A stretch of DNA of 42,272 nucleotides from a bacterium (lineage in GTDB: Bacteria; Armatimonadota; Zipacnadia; Zipacnadales; Zipacnadaceae), in NCBI GenBank assembly GCA_030603495.1, contig JAUVXR010000023.1, positions 1 to 42,272 of the forward strand, read 5' to 3'. Below, in pieces: positions 5,297 to 29,797 of the stretch. The position numbers and the translations under genes were made by a program. The notes below the pieces were generated by a model. That model searched no databases. It had not been told where the DNA came from and saw only the letters and a list, made by a program, of their open reading frames with translations. The first letter of the stretch is position 1; the number at the start of each line of letters is the position of its first letter.

Positions 5297-5422
5297 AGAC
5301 GTAGAAGTGCCAACACGGCCCAGGCGGGCCTCGAAGCCGACGAGGTGCAGATGCTTGCCGAGGCCCTAACGAAACTGCCCAAAGAGCAGGGGACAGCCCT
5401 GCCCGAAGCCCTGAGTGGATAG
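5297..5422 (+). pseudogene. Remnant of a tyrosine recombinase C-terminus
   Basis: The plus-strand frame ending at TAG 5420-5422 encodes a segment with ADEVQMLAEALTKLPKEQ. It closely matches the last residues of the intact tyrosine recombinase at 29036-29797 (DEVQRIAKALAALPQEQ), with about 17 identities in 29 positions by eye. No catalytic residues are present and a stop lies just upstream in frame (5294-5296), so this is the 3' scrap of a related integrase gene. It suggests a former integration or excision event at the edge of this island. Confidence 0.6.
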
Positions 5423-5713: not shown

Positions 5714-5765
5714 CCGCAGGAGGCCCGTAGACGCGACGAAATGACGAGACCCGTCCCTTAAGCAT

Positions 5766-5813
5766 GGGGTAAATCGGGGCTTTTGAGCGGAAAGAAGCGG
5801 AAGGGGATTGCCG
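5766..5813 (+). repeat. 48-bp imperfect direct repeat, left copy
   Basis: Matches 8255-8302 in the same orientation at 43 of 48 positions by eye; the core is AAATCGGGGC followed by GCGGAAAGAAGCGGAAGGG. This copy runs into the ribosome-binding region of the membrane protein gene starting at 5817. The right copy covers the stop codon of hsdS. Together they bracket a 2.4-kb block of small genes. Confidence 0.75.
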
Positions 5814-7303: not shown

Positions 7304-7474
7304 ATGAACGACTATATCACGGTCACGGACGCGGCCACTCGTCTCCACAGGTCGCCAGGCACGGTGCGGCGATGGCCGCCGGCCCGGCCCAGCAGCGCAG
7401 GCGTCTACACTCTGGCAGGCTCCAGACGGGCTGCGTCACCAGACAAGTTTGCATTCATGCAGGAGAATGCGTGA
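7304..7474 (+). CDS. Small excisionase-like HTH protein
   Basis: 56 aa from ATG 7304. The first 25 residues (MNDYITVTDAATRLHRSPGT followed by VRRW) match the winged-helix/MerR-like HTH_17 pattern of excisionases and small DNA-binding proteins. The second half is shorter and less typical, ending SPDKFAFMQENA where such proteins normally have a strand and a helix. It may be a directionality factor or regulator for a neighbouring element. Its 3' end overlaps the 3' end of the convergent OB-fold gene by 39 bases. Confidence 0.55.
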   Translation: MNDYITVTDAATRLHRSPGTVRRWPPARPSSAGVYTLAGSRRAASPDKFAFMQENA

Positions 7475-7900
7475 ATATGGAGAGCCGCCGCACCTACCCT
7501 TGATCCTCACCGTCTGCCATGGCTGTAGTCGGCTGAGCTCAGGGGTATCCGTGTCTGCGAACATACACCGCACAGTGGTATAATCCCCCGTGATCAGACT
7601 GACGTATGGGCCGTCGTGGACATCCTTGCCGATACTCTTAATCCGACCGCCCACGATGATTATCTTGTCCTTGAATCTAATGTCCGCCGCGACCTGATTT
7701 CGTCCGTATGCTATGGCGAGGTCCGTCGCAGAAACGATCTCCGAGACAGTCTGGCCCGGCGCATCCCCCGCCTCCGTCTCGGATCCACCGCGCCCCCATA
7801 TAGCTCCTATTACCATCCCAATAGCGATTACTCCCGACATCCCTATGGCCAACCCAACAAGTACCCTCCGGATCGAGAAAGTGGTCGCGCTATCCGCCAT
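7436..7900 (-). CDS. Membrane-anchored OB-fold protein (tRNA_anti-like)
   Basis: 154 aa. One N-terminal TM segment (about residues 11-33, IRRVLVGLAIGMSGVIAIGM), then a linker and an OB-fold domain (about 57-154). The domain follows the tRNA_anti-like pattern: a helix with DLAIAYGRNQVAADIRFKDK, strands with IIIVGGRIKSIGKD, YVSLITGD, VRCMFAD and VRIKGRCGG, and a final LLHECKLV. Family members are usually small membrane or secreted proteins of unknown function, so nucleic-acid binding should not be assumed. The gene stands alone on the minus strand. It is preceded by the 96-nt structured leader and its promoter, indicating RNA-level control. Confidence 0.75.
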   Translation of the reverse strand: MADSATTFSIRRVLVGLAIGMSGVIAIGMVIGAIWGRGGSETEAGDAPGQTVSEIVSATDLAIAYGRNQVAADIRFKDKIIIVGGRIKSIGKDVHDGPYVSLITGDYTTVRCMFADTDTPELSRLQPWQTVRIKGRCGGSPYSRILLHECKLVW

Positions 7901-7945
7901 GTCTCCGGCCCCTTTCTTGGCTGGAGTAATCCGGGGACCATAGAT

Positions 7946-8041
7946 AAGGCCGGCCCCCTGGTGGCATCCTGAGGAGTCGAAACTCCGTCAAGCACCTGAG
8001 AACCGGCCATTGCCGGCACGGAGTTTCTTACCTCAGGATGC
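7946..8041 (-). ncRNA. 96-nt structured leader RNA, copy A
   Basis: Read on the minus strand, it folds into three stacked helices. P1 pairs GCATCCTGAGG (8041-8031) with 7974-7964 (11 bp). P2 pairs GAAACTCCGT with ACGGAGTTTC (10 bp). P3 is a 6-bp hairpin with an AATG loop. Downstream, GGGGGCC (7958-7952) can pair with GGTCCCC (7939-7933), and the GGTG after P3 could pair with CACC after P1 as a pseudoknot. A second copy, also exactly 96 nt, lies at 27731-27826 and is 84/96 identical with compensatory changes. It ends about 45 bases before the OB-fold gene start. It matches no riboswitch class that I recognise. Confidence 0.75.
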
Positions 8042-8047
8042 ACCATC

Positions 8048-8077
8048 ATCATAAGCTATCGTCCGTCACTATGTCAA
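8048..8077 (-). promoter_or_regulatory. Sigma70-type promoter of the OB-fold gene leader
   Basis: Minus strand: TTGACA (8077-8072), an 18-bp spacer, then TATGAT (8053-8048). A start seven bases downstream falls at 8041, the first base of helix P1, so the RNA element would be the extreme 5' end of the transcript. Confidence 0.7.
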
Positions 8078-8254
8078 CCCTTGGGCACGAGGCGAGGCCC
8101 CAGAGGTAGCCGGTCCGGAGCGTAGGCGTCTACCCCCGGTCGCGCCCTGGCCGCGAGAATTGCAGCCGGGTGCTGTTTTGGCAAAGGGGCAGACCACACA
8201 AAGGCCATAGAAGCGCGTAGAGCGAAAGTTAGGGCAATAGCCAAGCAGTAGCCT

Positions 8255-8302
8255 GGGGCAAATCGGGGCTTTGGGGCGGAAAGAAGCGGAAGGGAATTAC
8301 CG
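8255..8302 (+). repeat. 48-bp imperfect direct repeat, right copy
   Basis: Same orientation as 5766-5813, with five differences in 48 positions. It includes the stop codon of hsdS (TTA on the plus strand at 8297-8299). A shorter match to its AAATCGGGG core also occurs near 14127, upstream of hsdR. Confidence 0.75.
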
Positions 8303-9988
8303 GCGTCGTCGGCTTTTCTTCGTATAGGCAGGATACTTGTCGTAGACGACATTGAGCAGCGCTTCGTGGTCCAGATCGCCATAGGCCGCTGCGATGGTCG
8401 CCACGTCCTGCCGGAGGTCCTCGGGTAGCTCCTGCAGGGCTTGCTCGGCTCGGCCAGCGTCGGCCAGGCTGATGCGGGTCTTGTCGTTGTCCTCTTTAAC
8501 CGCCACCAGGCTCTGGTCCTGAAGGCTTTCGAGATCGCTGTAGACCTCCTGAGCGAAGGGGCCGTAGTGGTAGGGAAGAAAGCTGTAAAGACGCCGCCGG
8601 CTGGCCCCCTCCATCTGAAGCAGGAAGGCGTACTTCATGAGGGCAGTGATGAGCACTGTGGCTTCGGCGGCGCGCCCGGCGTGCTGGGTTTTTTCGTGGA
8701 GGAAGGCCAGCAGGACAAGCTGAGGCAGGCGCTCGTAGAAGGCCTGGCGCTGGGTGATCCAGTCGGCATTGCGGGCTTCCCACTCGGCCGTGAGTTCGCC
8801 GGTGAAGGCGCGCTGCAGGACGACTTGGAAGGTGGTCTCTGCTTCTTGGAGGGCGTGCTCAAGACTATCCCTCAGCTGCTCTATCGCGGCATATTGGCGG
8901 AGGAATGACCGTTGGACGGCAATAGGCGGAATTGTAAGGCGAATACGCTTTAGGTTGGGGACGTTGAAGACGGCAACTGTTGAGCCTGGCGATAGTCGCC
9001 GGATCTGGTGTATGACGGCGGGACTAAAGTTGATGGCAACCGACAGGACTTCAGGTAGCAGTCTCTCGGGGGCCGGGGACACCTTGAGGAGATTGGGGCC
9101 GATAACCGCCCCCCGGAAGTTCTCTGGAACCACAGCTGCGCGGCCGGCGGTGCCAGTCCTGGTTATGATGACGTCGCCCGGGCTCACTCGGCAACTCGCT
9201 AGTTGGGCGGCCTTATCGGGCGTCACAAACTTGTCTCGCGTGTCGATAAACCGGTTAGAGGCCACATTGTCAATACCCAACACAGGTATTCCGCTATCAG
9301 TTAGTTCCGAGATGTGTAGTTGGCTTCCGAATGGGCCACACTTGACCCCACGCCGGTCGCGGACCAACTGTGCCAACGGCCTCACGTCGTAGCCTGCAGT
9401 GTCTCCCTCTGGGTCGCCAAGAGTGGTGTGGAAGAGAGCAATCAGGATGTCGTCCGCAAGCTTGAGGGCCTCCTGCCGCTTGCGCCGTATCTCATCCGCC
9501 TTCTGCAAGATCGCCACGATCCGCTCCTGCACAGGAAGAGGGGGAAGGGGGATGGGTATTTGCTTCGCCATGGTCTGATTCAGTTTCGAACGTGTTGTGC
9601 CGGAGACTAATGGAAGAATATCCGGGCGTATGACCAGGCTATAGTAGAGATAGTCGTGGGTGATGATTCCGGGAAGTGCGCGTAGTACGTGCGCATGATT
9701 GTTGACCCATGTTTTCCCAGAAACGGGGTAGGCAATCGGTTCAGTCGTGGATCCGAAAGGTCCGGCATCTTCTGCTAGAAGGACGAGGTCTTCGTCGAAT
9801 AGGTAATCATCAATCCAACCGACTTGGCCGTTTGCTCCATAGTATGGGAAGAGATCCTCGGGTTTCTTGCCTGCGATGCGCTCTTGGCGGGCTGCCTCAT
9901 TGATAGGGCGCCGGATGTGATCGAGGAATTCGGCAACCTCGCCCAGGTTCTTGGTTGGCCAGTACTTCGCGTGTTCCGAGGGCTTCAT
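8297..9988 (-). CDS. hsdS: Type I restriction-modification specificity subunit HsdS with extra C-terminal domain
   Basis: 563 aa. Two target-recognition domains (about residues 1-145 and 200-340) are each followed by a conserved helix region: 'IPIPLPPLPVQERIVAIL' near 144-161 and 'LTIPPIAVQRSFL' near 351-363. This is the normal HsdS half-repeat plan and reads the bipartite DNA target for HsdM and HsdR. Unlike ordinary HsdS (about 400-450 aa), it continues with a ~145-residue domain (about 420-563) containing LVLLAFLHEKTQ, a predicted helix with KYAFLLQ, then 'FLPYHYGPFAQEVYSDLESL'. That resembles YwgA/Panacea (DUF4065)-type domains known from antitoxin-like proteins. The start overlaps the hsdM stop by four bases (ATGA). 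A very basic tail (KKSRRRR) ends inside a repeat. Confidence 0.9.
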   Translation of the reverse strand: MKPSEHAKYWPTKNLGEVAEFLDHIRRPINEAARQERIAGKKPEDLFPYYGANGQVGWIDDYLFDEDLVLLAEDAGPFGSTTEPIAYPVSGKTWVNNHAHVLRALPGIITHDYLYYSLVIRPDILPLVSGTTRSKLNQTMAKQIPIPLPPLPVQERIVAILQKADEIRRKRQEALKLADDILIALFHTTLGDPEGDTAGYDVRPLAQLVRDRRGVKCGPFGSQLHISELTDSGIPVLGIDNVASNRFIDTRDKFVTPDKAAQLASCRVSPGDVIITRTGTAGRAAVVPENFRGAVIGPNLLKVSPAPERLLPEVLSVAINFSPAVIHQIRRLSPGSTVAVFNVPNLKRIRLTIPPIAVQRSFLRQYAAIEQLRDSLEHALQEAETTFQVVLQRAFTGELTAEWEARNADWITQRQAFYERLPQLVLLAFLHEKTQHAGRAAEATVLITALMKYAFLLQMEGASRRRLYSFLPYHYGPFAQEVYSDLESLQDQSLVAVKEDNDKTRISLADAGRAEQALQELPEDLRQDVATIAAAYGDLDHEALLNVVYDKYPAYTKKSRRRR

Positions 9989-11598
9989 TGCGACATCTCA
10001 CCAGTGTCGCCGTGGCTCACCATCAGCAGCAGGTCCCGCAGTTCGCTGGTGATCTCATCCTCCAGCTCCAGCAGACGGTTAATGTACACCTCGGGCGGCT
10101 GGTAGTCCACCGTCTCAGCTTCGTGCGGGCAGTAGCGCCCGGCAGTGAGGTTGTAGTTGGTCTCCCGTATCTGCTCGACGGTCACCCACCAGGACGTTTG
10201 GCTCTCGAACTGCGCGAGGTCGTCCGCCTTGGGGATCGCCCTGACACCACCATCACGCTGGTGGACCCAGTTGTACGGCCAGAGTAAGACCATGTGCTCC
10301 AGGTCGCCGTCGGTGTCGAAGTCGGGGAGGGGCCGGCGGGTCGCACCGAGATCACGCCCGTCGCTGTCGACGCCGTAGAACCAGACCCTGGAGGTCCGAA
10401 TGTCATCCTTGCCCAGAGGCCGCCGGAAGACGACGACGCTGGTCTTGGCCCCACTGTAGGGGTTGAAGACGCCGTTGGGCAGGCTGAGCACGGCGAGAAG
10501 CTCGAACTCCTCCACCAGACGACGGCAGATCTTGCGCAACATGCCCTTGGAGTCGAATAGCAGGCCCTCCTTGACCACGACAGCCGCCCGCCCGCCGGGG
10601 CGCAGGGCGTTCATCATGTGCTGGATGAACAGGGCCTCGTAGAGCTTGATGTGGTATTCGAAGTCTCCGATGCGCTCCTGCTTGGTGGGGCCGAATGGCG
10701 GATTGGCGAGGATGATGTCGTACTTGCCCTTGTGCACGTCCTGGGCTTTGTTGGAGATGCTGTCGTCGTTCTGAAGTTGGGCAGAGCCGTCTCCGTGCAG
10801 GATCATGTTCATGAGCGCCAGCTTGAAGACCAGGGGAACATGCTCGACACCGATAAGGTGCCTCTCCTTTAGGTCACGGATACGCCGCTCCTTCTCGGTA
10901 TAGGAGACGCGCTGCTGGTCAATCTGGCCCCGGACGTACTCGAAGGCCCTGACGATGAAGCCGGCGGTTCCGCACGCGGGATCATAGATGGTCTCGCCCA
11001 TGCCCGGCTCGACGATCTGCACCATCCGGTCCACGATATGGCGCGGGGTGAAGTACTCGGCGAACTCCTTGTCCTGTCCGTGCCTGCGAAGAAGATCCTC
11101 GTACGCGTGGCCAATGACATCGTAGCGTTCGCCCTGCTCACCGAGGCCTCGGGCCATGATCTCGCGCAAGTTCAGCTCACGGAGGCGCGAGGCAAGGGCG
11201 CGAACGGTGGTTGTGTAGCGCAGGGGAAAGAGTACGTCCTCGAAGAGCCGCCGGACGTCGGTAGCCGTAGGGTGATGGGAGTCACGCTGTGCGAGGTCTC
11301 GGAACATGCGGCGGCAGAACTCAATGCTGTCGGAAAAGCCGTGCTCCCTGGCATAACCGTCCGGGTCTGGTGCCCAACAGCCGAACCGGTACAGGTCCGG
11401 GATAAGCTGCTGGTCGTCGGGCAGGTGAGTGCCCCGGGCTTCCTCCTCCTCGGCGGCCATTTCATCCCAGAGCTTCATGAACAGGAAGAGGCTGAAGATT
11501 TCCAAGCGTTCGGTGGCGTGGAGGGCATCGTCGCGGAAGACGTTGGCGATGTCCCAAAGCTCGTCCCCGAACTGGTTGAAGTCAGGGGTCGTTGCCAT
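9985..11598 (-). CDS. hsdM: Type I restriction-modification DNA methyltransferase subunit HsdM
   Basis: 537 aa. An N-terminal helical HsdM domain (about 1-140) precedes the N6-adenine methylase domain. The AdoMet-binding motif I reads YDPACGTAGF (about 205-214) and the catalytic motif IV is NPPF (about 299-302). It methylates adenine at the target read by HsdS and forms the M2S core that HsdR joins. It lies between hsdR (17-bp overlap) and hsdS (4-bp overlap), so the three are translated as one operon. GGGGAG lies eight bases before the ATG. Motifs and length are normal for the family. Confidence 0.95.
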   Translation of the reverse strand: MATTPDFNQFGDELWDIANVFRDDALHATERLEIFSLFLFMKLWDEMAAEEEEARGTHLPDDQQLIPDLYRFGCWAPDPDGYAREHGFSDSIEFCRRMFRDLAQRDSHHPTATDVRRLFEDVLFPLRYTTTVRALASRLRELNLREIMARGLGEQGERYDVIGHAYEDLLRRHGQDKEFAEYFTPRHIVDRMVQIVEPGMGETIYDPACGTAGFIVRAFEYVRGQIDQQRVSYTEKERRIRDLKERHLIGVEHVPLVFKLALMNMILHGDGSAQLQNDDSISNKAQDVHKGKYDIILANPPFGPTKQERIGDFEYHIKLYEALFIQHMMNALRPGGRAAVVVKEGLLFDSKGMLRKICRRLVEEFELLAVLSLPNGVFNPYSGAKTSVVVFRRPLGKDDIRTSRVWFYGVDSDGRDLGATRRPLPDFDTDGDLEHMVLLWPYNWVHQRDGGVRAIPKADDLAQFESQTSWWVTVEQIRETNYNLTAGRYCPHEAETVDYQPPEVYINRLLELEDEITSELRDLLLMVSHGDTGEMSQ

Positions 11599-13912
11599 GT
11601 TGCTGCTCCCCTTGAACTGGCATTCGGACCTCGAGGTTCATTGCCTGGTCCGCGAACGCGATGAGGCTGTCCAGGCTGCCGAACACGCGCTTGATGTTGG
11701 CGAGACCGCCTGCCTGCTGGAGCCATTGGCTGCGCAGGATCTGCTCCGGCCTGATCTCGGGGTTCGCCCGCTTGAAGTCGCAGACCATGAAGACAAGTTC
11801 TCGCTGCTCCTTGTTGAGGCCTTTGTCCCGCGCCCACTGCTCGAACTGACGGCGGCGTGTCAGGGTGTCGAAGTCGGCCTCGCCACTGGCGACGGCAGCA
11901 AAGTCCTCCAGCGTAGCTTCCGGCTCGCCGTACAGATCGCGCAGGGCTTCCAGGGCGAAGCCGAGAGTGGCGAGGAAAGCATGGTCGGGCACCGGGGTGT
12001 TCTGTAGGTAGCGCCAGGAAAGGACAGTCTGGGCGAAGCGCTGCTTCAGGGCTTCGCGCTGCAGTCCGCCGCGTAGCTGGGCCTCGACCTGGCGGCGTAG
12101 TTCTTCGAGGATCGCGGGCGAGATGGTCTCGGAGAAGACGAGGTGGACCGGAACGTCTGCAATGACCATTTGCTGCTCGGCTCCAGGTCGCTCCGCAGGC
12201 GCGCCTTCCGGCTGTTCCTCTTCTTCCCGCTCCTCGCGGATCAGGTCTTCCTCTTCCTGCTCCACAGGCTCTTCTTCGATGCCCTGGGTGTCGTTCGTGA
12301 TGACCGGTTCGAGGCGCGTGATGTCTACGAAATCCACGAGCTTGTAGAGGGTCTTGCCGGTCTCCTGGCACTTGCGCGTGCCTCGTCCCTTCATCTGGAC
12401 GTAGAGCACCTTGGACTTCGTGGGTCGGGCCATGAGCAGGACTTCCACATCCGGGGCGTCTATGCCGGTGTCCAGCATACCGATGCCCACGAGCACGATA
12501 GGGCGTGGGTCCATGTTGGGGTCTTTGTGGGATTGCTCGATGATGGCGCTGCGTTCGGCAGCGTCTGTGACCCTTTGGAACTCCTCGATGATCCCCGCCG
12601 CGCCTGGCATTTCGTTGTGTACGGCCACAATGAAGCTCTCCGCTGCCGCGTCATTGGGCGGTAGGTTGTTGCGGCGATTGTACTCCTCAATGAGTGCATA
12701 GCGCAGGTTCTTGGCGTGGGCGATGGAAGCGGCGAAGACAATAGTCTTGACGGGCTCTCGGGTCCCGAGCATGTCCTCGAAGTAGGTCTGGGCAATCAGA
12801 CGGTTGCGCTCAGGCACGTCGACGGCGCGGCCCAGTTGACCCGGCTCGAAGTCGAAGCCCATGTCATGGACGCCTTCGAGGTCTACGTTGGTGTGGAGCT
12901 TGTGGTGGATGCACTGAGCGAGGCGTTCCCACTCCGTCACCTCGGGGTTCGTCTCGGCTTGCCGGATGGTGTAGCGGTAGATCGGGCCTCGGTACTGACC
13001 CGGATCGGTGAAAAAGCGGTCGGTGTTGACGGTCTCCTTGTCTGTGGGCGTGGCCGTCAAGCCGAGGAGAATGGCTCCGCCCTCAGCAAAGTACTCCAGC
13101 ACTGGATACCAATCGCCGAAGTAAGAGCGGTGGCATTCGTCGAGGATGACGAGGTCAAAGTGATCCTGGGGATAGTGTCGGTGCTTATCGCGGGCTGCCA
13201 AGTGTTGGATCGTGGTGACCAGCACGTCGCGGTGCCGGTCGTCCTTGCCGCCGGTTGCCCGGTCAATGTTGAAGTTGTCGCCGAGGTGTGTTTTGAACTT
13301 TCTGACGGTCTGAGCGGCCAGGGCGTCGCGATCTACCAGGAAGACTGCTCGTCTGACCAGGCCGACAGACCACAGCTTAGCGATAACCCCTGCTGCGGTG
13401 ATGGTTTTGCCCGTACCGGTGGCCATCTGAAGGTACATCCGCTTGCGAGCTGATTGGGCCGCAGCGAGGACTTGCGAGACCGCTACACGCTGGTAGTCGC
13501 GCAGAGTACCGTGTAGCTCGGTAGCCTGGGGTTGAAAGAACTCACGGAACTCCGCCGGAGTGGGGAAGGAAGCGAGACGTTCCGGTAGAGTGTTCGCCCT
13601 GAGGTTCTGGCGAAGGAACCCCGATCCGTCGCTGGCGAAGACGAGAGGGACATCCTGGCCTGTGTTCTCGCGGTAGGCGCGGGCATATCCCTTCGCCTGC
13701 TCAAGTGCAGCCCAGAGGTCTTTGCCGGGCTTCTTGGCCTCAAGGATCGCGACAACACGACCATCATACAGGAAGACCCGGTCGGCCTCTTGTCCGTCGA
13801 GGTCTTCGCGCCAGCGCTTGCGGGTGACGGTGAAGTCCGTGAGGTCCCATCCCCGTTCGCGCAGATGCTCCTCTATGAGTGTCTCGGCATCGGCTTCGCT
13901 GATAGCAGTCAA
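11582..13912 (-). CDS. hsdR: Type I restriction endonuclease/translocase subunit HsdR (EcoEI-like)
   Basis: 776 aa from a TTG at 13912, chosen because a perfect AGGAGG sits seven bases upstream. The frame is open for 51 more codons, but those residues do not look like protein of this family. The N-terminal nuclease domain has DRVFLYDGRVVAILEAKK, the D...E-x-K signature, near residues 44-61. The SF2 motor follows with GTGKT (166-170) and DECH (258-261), then a later RPTKSKVLYVQMKGRGTR segment (motif VI). An acidic Glu-rich linker precedes an EcoEI-type C-terminal domain. It cleaves unmethylated DNA after ATP-driven translocation. It is first in the operon and intact. Confidence 0.95.
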   Translation of the reverse strand: MTAISEADAETLIEEHLRERGWDLTDFTVTRKRWREDLDGQEADRVFLYDGRVVAILEAKKPGKDLWAALEQAKGYARAYRENTGQDVPLVFASDGSGFLRQNLRANTLPERLASFPTPAEFREFFQPQATELHGTLRDYQRVAVSQVLAAAQSARKRMYLQMATGTGKTITAAGVIAKLWSVGLVRRAVFLVDRDALAAQTVRKFKTHLGDNFNIDRATGGKDDRHRDVLVTTIQHLAARDKHRHYPQDHFDLVILDECHRSYFGDWYPVLEYFAEGGAILLGLTATPTDKETVNTDRFFTDPGQYRGPIYRYTIRQAETNPEVTEWERLAQCIHHKLHTNVDLEGVHDMGFDFEPGQLGRAVDVPERNRLIAQTYFEDMLGTREPVKTIVFAASIAHAKNLRYALIEEYNRRNNLPPNDAAAESFIVAVHNEMPGAAGIIEEFQRVTDAAERSAIIEQSHKDPNMDPRPIVLVGIGMLDTGIDAPDVEVLLMARPTKSKVLYVQMKGRGTRKCQETGKTLYKLVDFVDITRLEPVITNDTQGIEEEPVEQEEEDLIREEREEEEQPEGAPAERPGAEQQMVIADVPVHLVFSETISPAILEELRRQVEAQLRGGLQREALKQRFAQTVLSWRYLQNTPVPDHAFLATLGFALEALRDLYGEPEATLEDFAAVASGEADFDTLTRRRQFEQWARDKGLNKEQRELVFMVCDFKRANPEIRPEQILRSQWLQQAGGLANIKRVFGSLDSLIAFADQAMNLEVRMPVQGEQQHGNDP

Positions 13913-14187
13913 CGATGTGCCTCCTGCATCGTTACTGAGACGGTGCGGCACGTGTAGTGGCGGAAACGCCACGAGAATATTCGCTGCAAGACGAAGATAT
14001 TCCTCCTTAGGCGGAGAGGAGGAAGGTGGGATCAGGTGGATGGCGAATGAACATACATAGAGCACGGGGCTGGCAGCGTGGGAAAGTAGGCACTAAACCG
14101 AGGGGTATCGTCCCACAATGCGCCGGCAAATCGGGGTGGAATGGGGGCTTATTGGCAAGTAACTCGGCTTATGTCACCCCTTAGTCT

Positions 14188-14715
14188 TCAATCTCCCACG
14201 GTTCCCGAAAGCTTCTCCACCAACTCCCCAAATGCTTTGGTCTGGGCTTCCCTGTCCTGAATCACTACGAGTTCCCGCAACTGCCGTCCCGAGTATATGC
14301 GTTGCTCCCGAGCAGGAAGGGCTATAACGTACTCCTGGATCCGATCAGGGAGCTGGAGCAAACTCATAACCTGCGTTACCCGTGCGCGACTCAGCCCGCA
14401 CCGGCGAGCAATCTCTGCCCGATTGTTAACCACCCCGCCTTCTAACAGCCCCTGAAACTCATACGCGAGGGTAAGTGGATACCTGTACGGACTCTCCTGG
14501 ACTTTTTGAAGGCCCGGTTCTTCCCGTAATATCAAGCTTTTCGGGCAAAATGTAAAGCGCTCGAAAAAGTTCCTTCTGTGACCCATCCCCATCGGAGCCT
14601 GGTTCCTTGGCATTCTCCGGATCACCTCCCTGACGTCTGCGCCACGGACCGCCGTTCCCGTTTCGTCCTTGCGTTGGTTCGGACTCACTGATCTGGCAAC
14701 CCTTTCCGCTGCCAA
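14188..14715 (-). pseudogene. ParB/KorB-like HTH fragment, recombinase-tail homologue
   Basis: The frame is 175 codons, but clear similarity begins only around residue 49. From there it matches the C-terminal tail of the serine recombinase at 25278-27194: a shared 'YPLTLAYEFQ' block, then 'GVVNNRAEIAR', 'CGLSRARVTQVM', and 'IQEYVIALPAREQRIYSGR'. These form a ParB/KorB-type DNA-binding HTH. The first ~48 residues overlap the junction with an IS3 remnant on the opposite strand and are probably not genuine. The most likely reading is a recombinase gene truncated by IS insertion or deletion. A free-standing HTH protein is the alternative. Confidence 0.6.
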
Positions 14716-14718
14716 GCA

Positions 14719-15125
14719 GTGGCGGTCGGTGGCTGGACCACAACGATGAATCCTCCCAACTTGAATAGATCCCAGAGAGTCAAGCCCGTATGGCGATGGT
14801 TGTGGCGCGTAGGGGTCAAGCCCCTCTATATCGAGCCAGGCAGTCCCTGGGAGAATGGGTATCTAGAATCGTTCAACGGCAAGTTGCGGGACGAGCTGTT
14901 GAATGGGGAGATCTTTGACACCCTCCTGGAGGCGCAGGTACTAACGCAGCGATGGCGAAGGCACTATAATACAGTGAGGCCCCACAGTGCGCTCAACTAC
15001 CAACCACCAGCCCCGGAGGCGCTCCAGCCACGGCCTCCAGCTTCGGCTACGCCTCAGCTTACGGCCATGGCTATGCAGGCTGTAGGACTAACATAGCAGG
15101 TGGTACCACTAACGGGGGCAGGTCA
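14719..15125 (+). mobile_element. IS3-family element remnant (3' part of OrfB transposase)
   Basis: From about 14790 to TAG 15094-15096 the frame matches the end of an IS3-type DDE integrase: GVKPLYIEPGSPWENGY, SFNGKLRDELLNGE, and WRRHYNTVRPHSALNY. The final catalytic Glu (in WENGYLES) is present but the first two Asp residues are lost, so it is inactive. The residues before ~14790 are unrelated and mark the truncation point. The sequence just after the stop, with GGGGGCAGGTCA near 15114-15125, resembles the right end of such elements. It abuts the truncated recombinase tail on the other strand. Confidence 0.8.
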
Positions 15126-20718: not shown

Positions 20719-20779
20719 ACAACCCGCTATAATTGCGTAGTATAGGCCGGACCGCAGACAATTGACTCACAATCTGAAA

Positions 20780-21685
20780 ATGCAGCAAGCGACTAGTAGC
20801 ACCAACTGGTTGCACAGCGGCAAGGTTTGGCTGTGGCGCGGCGGGATAGTGGTGGCTGTGTTGGTCGTGGCGCTCGCAGTGTCTTCCCTGGCGTGGGGCG
20901 ACGTAGTTAGCGCAGACCTGTACCCAATCGCCGACGCCAGTGGGCAGTACTGGAAGGATATCACCGGCGCCGCCTACTCCGGGGATTTCCAAAGCAGTTT
21001 CAGTTACAACGATGCCAGCGTCAGCCTGTCCTACAACAGTTATGATGACTGCTGGTTTCGGGCCAGTTTGGATGCCACTGGCCTCAAGCCGAACTTTTGC
21101 TACCAGGTCAAGCTGAACGGCAAGCCGGAGGCTTATTGGGGGGAAGGCGGCGATGATACATCTAACGAAGCTCTGGGCTATGCCGGGCGCTGGTGGCGCA
21201 ATGAACCAAGTCCGGGTAACGCCGACGATAGCAACTACGAGGCTCACAAGGATGATCCCGACTATGTCTACAGCGGCTACCTGATGTACGATTTCTTTGT
21301 CACTGATGCGGACGGCAACGCCCAGATTGAAATAATATCGGACAATTCGTATCATGTCGTTTGGAAGACGAGCCAGCGTACACCGCAGGCTAACGATGGG
21401 CCAGTTTGCGATTACAATGTAGACGGAACCCCCGTCAGCATTTACGGCGAGTGGGAACCGACACGGGCCCTGCCGGGTGAATTAGCGCTGCGCCCGGGCA
21501 AATACGATGTCCAGTTCTTCCTTACCGAGGAGAGCTTCCATGATTCCGGGGCGTCGTGGGCGACAGTCATGGGCTACGATGAAGCCCGGTTTGATATCGC
21601 CCCGGAGCCGTCAACATTGATTCTGACGATCATGGGGATGACGGGGCTGGCTGGGGCACTCAGACGCAAGCGCTGCCAACGCTGA
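20780..21685 (+). CDS. PEP-CTERM-sorted extracellular protein
   Basis: 301 aa from ATG 20780; a TTG six codons earlier is possible. A long N-region precedes a hydrophobic signal (GGIVVAVLVVALAVSSLAWG). The C-terminus is a textbook PEP-CTERM tail: PEPSTLILTIMGMTGLAGAL followed by RRKR, that is a PEP motif, a TM helix and a basic tail recognised by exosortase and linked to exopolysaccharide. The central part is Asp/Tyr/Trp-rich and of unknown fold. The exosortase itself is not in the window. Such proteins are surface or matrix proteins. Confidence 0.85.
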   Translation: MQQATSSTNWLHSGKVWLWRGGIVVAVLVVALAVSSLAWGDVVSADLYPIADASGQYWKDITGAAYSGDFQSSFSYNDASVSLSYNSYDDCWFRASLDATGLKPNFCYQVKLNGKPEAYWGEGGDDTSNEALGYAGRWWRNEPSPGNADDSNYEAHKDDPDYVYSGYLMYDFFVTDADGNAQIEIISDNSYHVVWKTSQRTPQANDGPVCDYNVDGTPVSIYGEWEPTRALPGELALRPGKYDVQFFLTEESFHDSGASWATVMGYDEARFDIAPEPSTLILTIMGMTGLAGALRRKRCQR

Positions 21686-21781
21686 GATCTGCATAGAACA
21701 GATGGCCGTTGAGCGACACAGTACCGTGTGTGAAATCGCGTATGGCCGACGCGGGAGGGTGCCTTCAAAAGGAGCCCGACA

Positions 21782-22945
21782 ATGAAGCACGGCAGCATCA
21801 TAGTGACAGTGAGCGCATGGCTGATATTGACACTTGCGGCCGGATATGCTGACGTGGATAGCTACGAAGCCAATGACCCGAGGGTTGGGTTCATCATCGT
21901 CTCCTGGGCGGACCGTCCTGCGTCGGAGTGGGAAGCCTCCGTCCAGGCACTTCACGATATTGGCGTCACTGATGTTACCTTCGTCACATACCGTTTCAAC
22001 GAGTACGATGGCGCCAATTTCGGCACCAATATCACTACTACCAACACTCATGGTTATGAGCGGCCCACCGATGCGGCCATCGAGGCGGCTATCCAGCAGG
22101 CCAAGTTGCTGGGCATGACCGTGACCCTAAACCCTTTCCTAGAGGTAGATGCTAGCGGTGGGATAGGAGCCGTCTGGCGCGGCAATATCAACTTCTCTGA
22201 CAACGACGACCTGGCGGCATGGTTCGGCAGTTATGACTCCTATATGTACGACATGGCTACAATGGCCGACGCGAATGGCGTGGACCGACTGATGATAGGC
22301 TCTGAGCTGCAGGGCCTTTCGCTGGACGGCGATGCTACCAGCCATTGGAACTCACTGATTAGCGACATCCGGGCAGTTTATGACGGGAAGCTTAGCTACG
22401 CCGCCAATTGGAACTGGGAGTATAATCACGTGCCCTTCTGGAGTCAACTTGACGAAATTGGGATCGAGGCTTACTTTGAATTAGTGAGCGAAGGTGTGGC
22501 AAGTGGTGAGGGCAATCCTTCGATCGAGACCCTGGCGAGCGGTTGGGAGAGCGTTTTGTCAAGCCTGGAATCTTACAGCATTGCACAAAGCCGGCCAATA
22601 ATATTTAGTGAGGTAGGCTACACGTACCTGGATAAGACTACGGCACACCCGTGGAATTGGCAGACGTCAAGCGATCCGGATTATGCGGAGCAGCTTAACG
22701 CCTACAAGGCCCTCATTCACGCCACTGACCTGCAAGGAGACTGGCTCAAAGATATGGCATTTTGGCACTGGGACATGATCGGCGCCGATAGCAGCAACTA
22801 CATGATACCTTACGGTTCTGAGCCAGCCGAGTATGTTGGTGGCTATGTTCCAGAACCCGGATCAGTGTCATTGATGCTCTCGGGGCTTGGCGCACTGCTC
22901 GTTGGCTTTCGCCGGCGGCAGCGGTCGGCTGATGAATCCGAGTAG
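21782..22945 (+). CDS. Glycosidase-like TIM-barrel protein with PEP-CTERM tail
   Basis: 387 aa; AAGGAG lies seven bases before ATG 21782, with a Sec signal at residues 1-23. Residues about 33-345 follow the GH113/GTA-type TIM-barrel plan: an opening strand VGFIIVSWADRP, MIGSELQGL with candidate acid/base Glu near 175, and IIFSEVGYTY with candidate nucleophile Glu near 277. The barrel probably binds a beta-linked polysaccharide such as mannan or the cell's own exopolysaccharide. The C-terminus has VPEPGSVSLMLSGLGALLVG then RRRQR, a second PEP-CTERM tail. Likely a surface-anchored polysaccharide-modifying enzyme. Substrate unknown. Confidence 0.8.
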   Translation: MKHGSIIVTVSAWLILTLAAGYADVDSYEANDPRVGFIIVSWADRPASEWEASVQALHDIGVTDVTFVTYRFNEYDGANFGTNITTTNTHGYERPTDAAIEAAIQQAKLLGMTVTLNPFLEVDASGGIGAVWRGNINFSDNDDLAAWFGSYDSYMYDMATMADANGVDRLMIGSELQGLSLDGDATSHWNSLISDIRAVYDGKLSYAANWNWEYNHVPFWSQLDEIGIEAYFELVSEGVASGEGNPSIETLASGWESVLSSLESYSIAQSRPIIFSEVGYTYLDKTTAHPWNWQTSSDPDYAEQLNAYKALIHATDLQGDWLKDMAFWHWDMIGADSSNYMIPYGSEPAEYVGGYVPEPGSVSLMLSGLGALLVGFRRRQRSADESE

Positions 22946-23515: not shown

Positions 23516-24979
23516 ATGCATACTAACGCATCGCAGTTGCCCTGGGGGCATCACCGCCGGGGCACACACATTAATCTGGTAACGATGGCCGCCCTTGTCT
23601 GTATCGGGTTGCTGGCGTCAGCGACGCTTGGCATCACGGTATGCTGGGCGCAGGCGGAGCAGCCCGCCGCCGAAGCTGAGGGAATCCTCACCGGCCCCAC
23701 GGGCTATCCGCTGGTCAGCAACGTCTTCTACGATACGGACATTCGCCAGGCGCTGTCCGATGTGGCCTCCCAGACCGGCGCCACTATCATCCCCGATGAG
23801 AGCGTAATGGGCTATGTCACTCTTGACCTGCAGGATGTCGCTTTGGAGCAGGCATTGGAATGGATCCTGATGCCGGGCGGCTTCATCTACGCCGAAGTGG
23901 AGAAAGGCATCTACCTGGTCACCAGCCCCGATCCGACGGCGCCCAGCTTCGCCAGAATCGCTCGTACTCAAATAGTCGAACTCGACTACATTGACAGCGA
24001 TGAACTGAAGAGGCTACTGCCGGACATTTACAGCCCATTTGTTAAGTTTGATGAGATAGGCAATCGCGTAGTAGTGACCGCCCCGCCCAGACTTCTTGAA
24101 AAAGCCGTCGCGCAAATCAAAGCAATAGACGACCCGCCGCTGCAGATTATGATCGAGGCGTTGGTGGTGGAGACCAATCGGGACGCGTTGCGGGACTTCC
24201 AACTGAGCCTGCAGGGCGAGCATGTGGGCATGAGCAGTGCCACCGGGTTGATAACCTACGTAGACCAAGCCGAACAACTGCTGCATCAGCTATTGTGGCT
24301 AACTGACAAGCAAAAAGCTACCATTAGGGCTAATCCACGAGTGGTGGCCCAGGAAGGCGACGAGGCCAAGGTAAGTGTGGCCACCGAGCAGTACTACCAG
24401 ATACTGACGGGGCGAGTCGGCTGGGAATATGTAAGACTGGAGGCAATAGAGGCGACCATCGGTTTGACCATAACGCCGCGAGTAGCTGAAAAGGATAACA
24501 AGGTAATCTGCACCATTAAGCCAGAGGTGGGCGATGTAACCGGAACGGGCCCCAACAGCTTGCCAATTATCACCAGACGAACGGCCGAAACCACCGTGCG
24601 CATCGCCGACGGTAAGGTCATCGCTATTGGTGGACTGCTCCAAGAGGTCAAACGCGAGACCGAGCGCAAGATACCGCTACTGGGCGATCTGCCTCTGATT
24701 GGCCCGCTGTTCCGCAGTACAAGCAAGGAAAGCCACCAACGAGAAATTATCATCTTCGTAGTTCCTCATATTCTCGACGAGGCCGGCGGATTTGAGGGGC
24801 CACTGTTGTTCCAACGCCAGCTAGAGCAGCCAGCTAATGGGCCAGGAAACACCCCTGAGCAGCCGAGTGGGCGAAGAGACCGAACCGGGGCGACCACTCA
24901 GGATGAAGAGGCCCGCTCCTCGGTCAGAGGTCTGCGTGAATCGTTTCACTTTCCTCCAGCGGTAGGAAGCAAGCACTAA
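23516..24979 (+). CDS. Secretin (type II/IV pilus-type outer-membrane pore)
   Basis: 487 aa. The signal segment (MAALVCIGLLASATLGITVC) follows a polar N-region. Residues about 65-140 form an STN/N0-like domain (NVFYDTDIRQALSDVASQTG and LDLQDVALEQALEWIL), then an N1/NolW-type region. The C-terminal secretin domain (about 280-430) ends with the hallmark KIPLLGDLPLIGPLFR and then IIIFVVPHIL. It should form an outer-membrane channel, and it is shorter than PilQ or GspD, with fewer N-domains. No ATPase, inner-membrane platform or prepilin is in the window. It is the last gene of the exoprotein run, suggesting it exports or anchors products of the preceding genes. Confidence 0.9.
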   Translation: MHTNASQLPWGHHRRGTHINLVTMAALVCIGLLASATLGITVCWAQAEQPAAEAEGILTGPTGYPLVSNVFYDTDIRQALSDVASQTGATIIPDESVMGYVTLDLQDVALEQALEWILMPGGFIYAEVEKGIYLVTSPDPTAPSFARIARTQIVELDYIDSDELKRLLPDIYSPFVKFDEIGNRVVVTAPPRLLEKAVAQIKAIDDPPLQIMIEALVVETNRDALRDFQLSLQGEHVGMSSATGLITYVDQAEQLLHQLLWLTDKQKATIRANPRVVAQEGDEAKVSVATEQYYQILTGRVGWEYVRLEAIEATIGLTITPRVAEKDNKVICTIKPEVGDVTGTGPNSLPIITRRTAETTVRIADGKVIAIGGLLQEVKRETERKIPLLGDLPLIGPLFRSTSKESHQREIIIFVVPHILDEAGGFEGPLLFQRQLEQPANGPGNTPEQPSGRRDRTGATTQDEEARSSVRGLRESFHFPPAVGSKH

Positions 24980-27289: not shown

Positions 27290-27694
27290 CTATACCTTCT
27301 GATACCACATCCAGTACCAGAGTCCTGGACTATACGGGAATACCAAGTACAGGTCAGGACCAGACGGAAAGAAAGACGCTATCTGTGGGCTTCCGTCGTC
27401 AAAAGTATAGAAGGTCCCAAGGTTAGTCCATATCCCTGTTACTGTCCCGCCTCCCCCAGGATACACCATTGTCCATTCTGCCTCGTGGTTACTGAAGCAG
27501 CGCAGGGTCGAGGCAATCGGCCCCAGGTCGGGGTCCCTGTAACTATCCAACGAGAGGCTTATAGCGTACAGCTCCCACGTCCCCACTATGAAGTCCTGGC
27601 TGGACCCGCCACCGCCGCCTCCACAGCCCACAAGTAGCCCTACCACCACTGCCGCCGTGATAACACTGACTGCCCAGAATCTGTTACGCTTCAT
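27290..27694 (-). CDS. Small lipoprotein under the 96-nt leader RNA
   Basis: 134 aa from ATG 27694, with GGAGG eight bases upstream. The signal ends in a lipobox (AAVVVGLLVGC) followed by a flexible Gly-run. The mature part of ~100 residues begins FIVGTWELYAISL, a lipocalin-like opening, and is rich in Tyr, Trp and Gly, suggesting a small beta-barrel. The function is unknown. The 96-nt structured RNA and its promoter lie immediately upstream, the same arrangement as for the OB-fold membrane protein at 7436-7900. The two proteins share no sequence similarity that I can see, beyond being small and envelope-bound. Confidence 0.75.
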   Translation of the reverse strand: MKRNRFWAVSVITAAVVVGLLVGCGGGGGGSSQDFIVGTWELYAISLSLDSYRDPDLGPIASTLRCFSNHEAEWTMVYPGGGGTVTGIWTNLGTFYTFDDGSPQIASFFPSGPDLYLVFPYSPGLWYWMWYQKV

Positions 27695-27730: not shown

Positions 27731-27826
27731 AAGGCCGGCCCCCTGGTGGCCTCTTGAGGAGTGGAAACTCCGTCAAGCACCTGAGAGCCGGCCATAGCCA
27801 GCACGGAGTCTCCTGTCTCAAGAGGC
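27731..27826 (-). ncRNA. 96-nt structured leader RNA, copy B
   Basis: Same element as 7946-8041. P1 is GCCTCTTGAG (27826-27817) with CTCAAGAGGC (10 bp). P2 is GGAGACTCCGT with ACGGAGTTTCC (11 bp, one G-T). P3 is a hairpin with TATG loop. Relative to copy A, two P1 base pairs change on both sides (A-T to C-G, C-G to T-A) and most other substitutions are G-T tolerant or in loops. GGGGGC/GCCCCC pairing (27743-27738 with 27724-27719) sits between the element and the ribosome-binding site, matching the downstream helix of copy A. Confidence 0.75.
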
Positions 27827-27833
27827 ACTGCTT

Positions 27834-27862
27834 ATTATAGCTACGGAGGGCCACTAGGTCAA
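27834..27862 (-). promoter_or_regulatory. Sigma70-type promoter of the lipoprotein leader
   Basis: Minus strand: TTGACC (27862-27857), a 17-bp spacer, then a perfect TATAAT (27839-27834). The predicted start, 27826-27827, is the first base of helix P1. Parts of the spacer (TAGTG after the -35 and TAGCT before the -10) are also shared with copy A. Confidence 0.75.
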
Positions 27863-27998
27863 ACACTGACAGCACCTTTCTTTCCTGCGTCTTTCCGGTC
27901 AAGCTGCCCGATTTACCCTATGCTATGGGTCGGGTCTGATCATTTCGTCGCGCCTACGGGCCTACTGGTACAAATGCTCCTGTGGGCTGTTAGTTCGT

Positions 27999-28721
27999 CT
28001 ACTCTCCGTTAGCACTACACTTTGCCACATATTCCCTTGTTCGCTCCGCCAACCACTGGAAAAGAGCATCACTGTCATTAAGCATATCGGTACAGTTGTC
28101 ACCGGTCAGCTCCACTCGCCATGTGTCACACAGTCCCATGCCCGCGTCTTCGAATTGCAGGCCCAAGTGCTCTTGAAGGTCTTCCACGGTGCTCAGGTCG
28201 TCTATACAGCCATCTGTATGCACTAGAGCGTTGCGCACCCTCCGCCAGCGATCAATGCGTTCCCACTCGGAACTAGACCTCAAGCTGGGCCAGCCAAGTG
28301 TCGTCACAATGTCATCTAACCGCTTCGATATTTCATCAAACCCCATACGGTCCGGACTGCACTTCCGGCCCTCGAGTGTTTGGCAGTACACTCTCAGCGC
28401 GTCCTTCAAGGACTGTTCTACAGCAGAATAGACCATCAGCACTACGGCCTCATACAGAATCTTGTGGAAGTGTATTGCGACCATAGCGGCTTTGTCCCAG
28501 ACAAGCTCCTCACGGCACTGATCCCAATACCCCTTATTGGGAACATCCGCGAGCCGTTGGCTGAACTCCTTGGCTGCAGCTTCCCTTGCACCTAATTCGG
28601 CATCTGTCCATCGCCCTGCACAGCCCAGGAAATCTGCGATGGCATGCAGCGAGGGCCCCAGGCCGACTTCTTCTACCATCGACGTCAGCATCTCCAATCC
28701 TTTTTCTCTTTCCGTTGGCAT
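27999..28721 (-). CDS. HEPN-domain protein (putative RNase or toxin-like)
   Basis: 240 aa, all-helical, cytoplasmic; AAGGAG lies five bases before ATG 28721. Residues about 80-170 look like a HEPN four-helix bundle: an upper helix with FHKILYEAVVLMVYSAVEQS and the RNALVH motif (Arg 163, His 168), the R-x4-H signature of HEPN ribonucleases, followed by a conserved Thr-Asp. HEPN proteins cut RNA in toxin-antitoxin, abortive-infection and Abi-like defence systems. The gene lies downstream of an integrase and a 70-aa gene on the same strand, which fits mobile-element cargo. No nucleotidyltransferase (MNT) partner is adjacent, so if it is a toxin the antitoxin is not obvious. Confidence 0.65.
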   Translation of the reverse strand: MPTEREKGLEMLTSMVEEVGLGPSLHAIADFLGCAGRWTDAELGAREAAAKEFSQRLADVPNKGYWDQCREELVWDKAAMVAIHFHKILYEAVVLMVYSAVEQSLKDALRVYCQTLEGRKCSPDRMGFDEISKRLDDIVTTLGWPSLRSSSEWERIDRWRRVRNALVHTDGCIDDLSTVEDLQEHLGLQFEDAGMGLCDTWRVELTGDNCTDMLNDSDALFQWLAERTREYVAKCSANGE

Positions 28722-29035: not shown

Positions 29036-29797
29036 TCATGCGCTCAGGACCTCGGCCAGGGCTTCTCGCTGCTCCTGTGGCAGAGCGGCCAGGGCCTTAG
29101 CTATCCGCTGCACCTCGTCTTCCTCTGCCGGCGGCGCCACCTCCAGGGCCTCCACCGCCTGCCGTACATCTTTGTCTCTGGCCTCCGCATATATCTGCGT
29201 GGTGGTGACGGCCCGGTGCCCCAGGAACTTGCGGACTATCTCGATGTTGCCAGTCGAGTTAAAGAGCCGCTGGGCTGCCGAATGCCGCAGGGTATGCGGA
29301 TGTACCCAGTCCGGCAGGCCCGCCTTCTCCGCTAACCGCTTGACCAGTTCCCGCACATACCGAGGCTGGATCTTCCGGCCTGGCTGGATTTGCTTCTCCT
29401 GCGTAGTACCGGGAATAAACTGCCCGTCGTCACCCCGGACGGGGAACCGCAGCTTACCCCTGGAGAGTGTGGTAACGACCAGGCCATTGTTCAGCCCCAG
29501 GCTCGCCCGCCGCTCCAGCCACCGGGCCAGGGCATCACGGCCGCGGCCCGTCAGGTACACGATCCGCTCCCAGCCGCCCTTGGTGTGGGTGAGGTGCAGG
29601 GAGGTAACCTCCTCCCGCTCGCGCCGCAGGTCGCCGCTCTCCAGAGACAGCACCTCGTCCAGGCGCAGGCCGCCGTCAGCCATAAGCACCAGCAGGGCGC
29701 GGTTGCGTAAGGCCATCGAGCTTTTGCCCTCCACCTGGTCGAGCAGGGCGCTTACCTGCTCTTCGGTGAGGGATTTGGGTAGTTTTCTGCTTGTCAT
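29036..29797 (-). CDS. Tyrosine recombinase lacking the N-terminal core-binding domain
   Basis: 253 aa from ATG 29797 (GTG at 29800 is equally possible; GGAG lies 6-9 bases upstream). The catalytic fold is complete: Arg in GGLRLDE (about 45), Lys in THTKGG (about 73), HTLRH (His 168, Arg 171), LGHRAV (His 194) and the nucleophile in TTQIYAEA (Tyr 203). The usual ~100-residue SAM-like arm or core-binding domain is missing, so it resembles short integron- or XerH-like forms or a trimmed phage integrase. A polar tail (about 215-253) matches the remnant at 5297-5422. A consensus promoter precedes it. It probably mobilises the block with the 70-aa and HEPN genes. Confidence 0.85.
   Translation of the reverse strand: MTSRKLPKSLTEEQVSALLDQVEGKSSMALRNRALLVLMADGGLRLDEVLSLESGDLRREREEVTSLHLTHTKGGWERIVYLTGRGRDALARWLERRASLGLNNGLVVTTLSRGKLRFPVRGDDGQFIPGTTQEKQIQPGRKIQPRYVRELVKRLAEKAGLPDWVHPHTLRHSAAQRLFNSTGNIEIVRKFLGHRAVTTTQIYAEARDKDVRQAVEALEVAPPAEEDEVQRIAKALAALPQEQREALAEVLSA

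Follow-up and report, generated by a model that had tools for sequence, protein, structure and literature searches.

A candidate promoter-proximal transcription attenuator with two mutually exclusive folds, associated with mobile accessory genes in Armatimonadota

Introduction

A 96-nt sequence occurs twice on the minus strand of the window, the whole 42,272-nt stretch of DNA analysed here, at 7946-8041 and 27731-27826, each time ahead of a small gene. The original prediction took this duplicated element, which precedes two unrelated genes, to be a selected cis-regulatory RNA and not a random repeat. Is it such an RNA and, if so, how could it control the genes that follow it? The host belongs to the Armatimonadota, a phylum with very few cultured members. 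Its class, Zipacnadia, was described from anoxic deep-sea sediments (PMC10290634), and the contig of a copy that we found in another genus also carries the Zipacnadia name.

Results and discussion

Two copies with a covarying fold

The two copies are identical at 84 of 96 positions (blastn E 4e-30), as originally predicted, and are all the copies that blastn and covariance searches found in the host genome. Their folding z-scores were -4.1 and -2.6. The compensatory changes claimed earlier are present in the sequences: two P1 pairs change on both sides between copy 1 and copy 2 (A-U to C-G and C-G to U-A), and P3 keeps its pairing through a G-U to G-C change (G-T to G-C in the DNA). Copy 2 lacks one basal P1 pair. 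The leaders, their promoters and the genes that follow are listed below.

7946..8041, minus strand: leader RNA copy 1 (read-through fold and covariation; model score (R1) 129 bits)
8041-8031 with 7974-7964, minus strand: copy 1 P1, read-through form
8026-8018 with 7988-7980, minus strand: copy 1 P2, read-through form
8016-8012 with 8007-8003, minus strand: copy 1 P3, read-through form
27731..27826, minus strand: leader RNA copy 2, P1 27826-27816 with 27759-27749 (fold and sequence comparison)
8048..8077, minus strand: promoter of copy 1, TTGACA-18-TATGAT (11/12 consensus matches, 0.1 expected)
27834..27862, minus strand: promoter of copy 2, TTGACC-17-TATAAT (11/12 consensus matches)
7436..7900, minus strand: gene 1, membrane-anchored OB-fold protein (tRNA_anti-like, Pfam), 154 aa, with none in the other genomes of the order
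27290..27694, minus strand: gene 2, lipoprotein-like protein, 134 aa, without a Pfam match

DNA and covariance searches, the latter suggested in the original prediction, identified three further copies: two sister species in the genus have one each, and the third comes from a different genus within the family. The leader was not found in the remaining 287 of the 291 Armatimonadota genomes searched. In the covariance-model alignment, which comprises only five mutually related rows fitted to the model, 9 of 25 pairs changed on both sides, and P1 accounts for seven of these nine. Pairing was retained in 97.6% of cells, compared with 31-48% when the partner strand was slid by 1-3 columns, and none of 500 shuffles matched the observed covariation score. 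Because these nine pairs change on both sides, the evidence that P1 and P2 are real helices is strong, if not final.

The Rfam search that had been proposed was also run, and no named family matched either copy: Rfam 15 (4227 models) gave no match in the window at the gathering score, and permissive thresholds yielded only chance miRNA, snoRNA and sRNA scores far under threshold. Phage and plasmid collections held no match to the leader. Among 2.9 million viral contigs, a core-motif scan returned two matches and a terminator-pair scan one, none of which reached a covariance-model E of 0.01. The core-motif scan of 84,980 genomes (species) gave 20 matches, of which the covariance model scored only three already known loci. 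A relaxed promoter-plus-terminator pattern applied to 46 genomes recovered the architecture only in the known leaders and one diverged relative, and a promoter/hairpin scan of 394 kb (~310 kb sampled elsewhere in the host's own genome, the window and the relatives' contigs) found no further family members. The covariation among five copies and the absence of an Rfam match support the view of a selected cis-regulatory RNA. Random orientation to genes, which would have suggested a mobile repeat, was not seen, as all copies share one orientation to the gene. From these comparisons, the leader looks like a previously undescribed, very rare and narrowly distributed cis-regulatory RNA without an Rfam family.

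Promoters and downstream genes

A near-consensus sigma-70-type promoter, recognized by consensus only, ends a few nucleotides 5' of P1 in the five copies and in the diverged relative. In copy 1, the RNA should start ~5-7 nt past the promoter, at the first P1 base. Two observations bear on a ribosome-mediated, trp-like attenuator with a conserved leader peptide: the start predicted by the promoter scan lies within ~10 nt of P1, leaving no room for a Shine-Dalgarno sequence before it, and in the alignments indels between the copies break the reading frame. Among 126 promoter-like sites in the 394 kb, the seven with the lowest folding energies comprise all six leaders and one other site, which looks tRNA-like. 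Homology of copy 1 to the other copies runs from the -35 box through CCCCGG after the terminator, the span that would be expected of a unit under selection.

An ORF follows the leader on the same strand in 5/5 copies; in the window, the start codons lie 45 nt (copy 1) and 36 nt (copy 2) past the GGCCGGCC arm. Placement before envelope genes had been anticipated. A gene is indeed always downstream, but "envelope" proved too specific, as the five genes are unrelated and encode an OB-fold protein, a lipoprotein, an ankyrin protein, a secreted protein and a small soluble protein.

A second, terminator-like helix

In every copy, GGCCGGYUCUC, made up of the P3 3' arm together with the apical bulge, has its complement in GGGGGCCGGCC, immediately 5' of a run of U's. 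The pairing extends via GGUG:CACC, CUUGA:UCAGG and GGAG:CUCC or shorter equivalents to a total of 21-24 pairs, with GGCG:CGCU (G010) and GGUG:CAUC (G004) as the counterparts of GGUG:CACC. This alternative helix was found in 6/6 leaders, namely the five copies and the diverged relative. It uses strands of P1, P2 and P3, and the two folds are therefore mutually exclusive.

7998..8008, minus strand: copy 1 terminator 5' arm GGCCGGUUCUC, overlapping the P3 3' strand and apical bulge and continuing through GGUG 7996-7993
7944..7963, minus strand: copy 1 terminator 3' arm, CACC 7963-7960, GGGGGCCGGCC 7958-7948 and UUAU 7947-7944 (weak U-tract)
27793-27783 and 27743-27733, minus strand: copy 2 terminator arms, then UUUU 27732-27729
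7933..7958, minus strand: copy 1 post-terminator hairpin GGGGGCC/GGUCCCC, fitting the read-through form only
27743-27738 with 27724-27719, minus strand: copy 2 post-terminator hairpin (fold)

The post-terminator hairpin (GGGGGC/GCCCCC), present in 5/5 copies and compatible with the read-through fold only, is the further helix that had been noted by the ribosome-binding region of both window copies. The GGTG/CACC complementarity pointed out earlier is likewise present, but its reading as a pseudoknot was rejected on geometric grounds: with P1 and P2 intact the partners cannot meet, because a stem of ~20 bp separates them and the linkers measure only 0-4 nt. The pairing instead continues the competing terminator helix.

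When sequences were shuffled with the read-through pairs kept, an inner terminator helix as strong as the real one arose in fractions of 0.004, 0.004, 0.012, 0.006, 0.032 and 0.076 of trials, that is, it was weaker in 92-99.6% of them. The helix stays paired in every copy through several G-C/G-U changes, and in L004 one of its pairs is compensatory (U-A to C-G); most of the 11-bp arms are invariant, so that they offer no covariation. The U-tract is UUUU-UUUUU in four leaders, UUAU in copy 1 and UUCC in the diverged relative, and the weakness of the last two is the main caution. A simple terminator scan, whose loop limit is 8 nt, found none at the leaders.

The read-through fold was favoured by 0.5-12 kcal/mol, and termination would therefore need a trigger. 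At 37 °C, the predicted probability of the terminator at the U-tract was 1e-8 to 0.03, and blocking nt 1-12 raised it to 0.90-1.0 in the five copies. An RNA thermometer was rejected, since the terminator fraction stayed low throughout 10-60 °C.

A diverged tandem relative

The diverged relative lies in G004, where another promoter, followed by a hairpin of other sequence (z -6.6), was found ~0.26 kb upstream of the copy. In this hairpin, the apical GGUCGGCUUCGU can pair with ACGGAGCCGGCC, after which comes UUCC. The family model scored the relative at 14.8 bits, with an E of 0.0008 that applies to this 301-base stretch alone. Compared with shuffles, the inner terminator helix stands out less (0.076), and blocking nt 1-12 raised the terminator fraction only to 0.02. 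Downstream of the relative comes a second promoter and not directly a gene. Judged from its sequence, this relative is of the same design as the leader family.

Proposed mechanism and alternatives

The features of an attenuator seen here are a promoter upstream (consensus only), a same-strand gene downstream, and exclusive, conserved helices, one of them terminator-like. We therefore consider it fairly probable that the leader attenuates transcription close to its promoter by choosing between two folds that exclude each other, and that it moves with mobile accessory-gene insertions; termination, its trigger and the direction of regulation are the inferred parts of this reading. Transcription would start at the first P1 bases. 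With P1, P2 and P3 formed, the arm GGCCGGYUCUC would be hidden and RNA polymerase would continue into the gene that follows; the read-through state would then be locked by the GGGGGC/GCCCCC hairpin. If a protein, a trans RNA or a ligand-stabilised alternative kept the P1 5' strand from pairing, the arm and loop would be released to pair with CACC(A)GGGGGCCGGCC, and the resulting 21-24 bp helix followed by U's would stop transcription after ~100 nt, so that the terminated RNA would end at GGCCGGCCUUUU. As the read-through fold is more stable and blocking nt 1-12 flips it in the modelled five copies, we infer a default-on switch that is turned off when something captures the RNA 5' end. The pair of folds thus makes concrete predictions, namely particular mutations and nt 1-12 as the site of the trigger.

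Some of the same observations could fit other kinds of RNA. The conserved apical sequence (CUCCGUGCCGGCUAUGGCCGGUUCUCRGGUGCUU..CGGAG) might be the aptamer of a small-molecule riboswitch with the terminator as its expression platform. The conservation itself, the terminator-type platform and the tandem arrangement in G004 speak for this, and yet terminator formation already accounts for the majority of these apical bases, neither the size nor the sequence of the P1/P2 internal loop is constant, and the downstream genes share no common pathway, which is unusual for metabolite riboswitches. Rare classes with an aptamer overlapping the terminator do exist (the HMP-PP class, PMC6478431); all in all, a riboswitch seems unlikely. 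The greater stability of the read-through hairpin and the weak U-tracts of 2/6 leaders would also suit a structured 5' leader without a switch, acting as an mRNA stabiliser or as a promoter insulator of a mobile gene, with the second fold incidental. We doubt this explanation, because the inner terminator pairing beats structure-preserving shuffles in most copies and survives sequence change, and the diverged relative retains the competing helix. A promoter together with a terminator-like 3' end would suit a ~100-nt trans-acting small RNA whose gene precedes others by chance, and the diverged copy in G004 does stand before a promoter; such a gene is nevertheless very unlikely, given that the terminator and the main fold cannot coexist, an ORF follows all five close copies, and the post-terminator hairpin is conserved up to CCCCC.

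The proposed attenuator resembles factor-dependent attenuators (trp/TRAP, B. subtilis rplJL/L10(L12)4 and ANTAR/EutV leaders) in being a promoter-proximal leader before a gene with two mutually exclusive helices, one of them an intrinsic-terminator-like stem with U's. It differs from them in sequence and fold, in that the switching strand is the extreme RNA 5' end, and in the unrelated accessory genes downstream. Like the leader, the HMP-PP (thiS motif) riboswitch (PMC6478431) is rare, has an apical sequence common to the sensing fold and the terminator, and occurs in tandems; its aptamer is embedded in the terminator. Unlike it, the leader has a ~25-bp read-through stem as its default state, no thiamin genes and no Rfam match.

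Mobile context

Copy 1 sits in a 2.5-kb segment bounded by 53-nt direct repeats, and the G004 tandem in a 1.33-kb insert bounded by 48-nt repeats of the purS 3' end; at the latter site, just 50 bp separate secA and purS in G003. Copy 2 and the G006 copy share a nearby serine recombinase, 91% identical at the DNA level, and have different genes. For the two downstream genes tested, no orthologue turned up elsewhere in the order.

5761..5813, plus strand: direct repeat on the left of the copy 1 segment, 53 nt, 89% (repeat comparison)
8250..8302, plus strand: right direct repeat of the copy 1 segment, at the hsdS 3' end
27882..27967, minus strand: stretch adjoining promoter 2 on its upstream side, with 83% identity to 5717-5802 (overlapping the left direct repeat) and also found upstream of the G006 copy

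Because direct repeats flank two loci, a recombinase is shared between sites with different genes and the two downstream genes tested lack orthologues in the order, we read the leader as a putative promoter-plus-attenuator on small mobile insertions, by extension also for the copies without flanking repeats. The best reading is that the downstream genes are accessory cargo and that the RNA is both regulatory and carried on mobile DNA, so that the leader would move as a promoter-plus-switch module ahead of unrelated accessory genes. More tentatively, promoter and bistable, 5'-end-triggered termination switch might form a mobile module that has repeatedly been placed before unrelated cargo in small insertions. 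If so, newly acquired genes would arrive under ready-made common control. That mobile gene cassettes may bring their own promoter and termination switch bears on the control of freshly acquired genes, and the leader adds an undescribed cis-regulatory RNA from the Armatimonadota.

The occurrence of copies within recombinase-bearing islands, with direct repeats at two loci, could also mean that the hairpin acts as DNA, as an attC-like recombination site or a MITE-like transposable hairpin folding as single-stranded DNA during cassette movement. As in integron gene cassettes, a structured hairpin stands beside exchangeable, mostly orphan small genes. Here, however, the hairpin follows a promoter at the transcript 5' end instead of following the gene, inspection of the two window leaders revealed no attC core boxes (GTTRRRY / RYYYAAC) at the hairpin ends, and the flanking repeats are host-gene 3' ends (purS 3' end, hsdS end) away from the hairpin. 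Moreover, the promoter keeps a constant distance and orientation, and three U-G pairs per terminator arm form only on the transcribed strand. A role as a DNA hairpin is thus extremely improbable, and we retain the attenuator reading.

Several observations concern the surroundings of the leaders. The secA-purS gap is an insertion hotspot in the genus (L036 12604-13983; L093, L094, L095, L098), where G002, G004, G005 and G006 carry different genes over 0.6-1.4 kb, with purS-3'-end-like sequence on both sides of the inserts of G002, G004 and G006. In the G002 insert (L095), the promoter start CACTAAAGGTTGACTTTTTCC recurs together with a hairpin and a 12-13 bp terminator with UUUUU, followed by what we take, from reading the sequence, to be an NYN-like gene; this may be a third leader type. 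In L034, the purL 3' end lies within a direct repeat of 209 bp and 90% (12680-12884 and 14534-14742), which flanks a 1.65-kb insert with a 462-aa ORF, presumably sialidase-like. Four of the five leader copies have the 3' end of an integrase gene nearby, which at some sites seems to be a remnant (window 29036-29163 and 5333-5418; L034 1715-1843; L035 2684-2766). Within the window, a complete type I restriction-modification operon (hsdR, hsdM, hsdS; 8297-14065) adjoins copy 1, and the gene upstream of copy 2 (27999-28721) has weak, sub-threshold similarity to the HEPN family. Two PEP-CTERM proteins, of which one is a GH113 glycoside hydrolase, are encoded at 20762-22945, followed by a secretin at 23516-24979.
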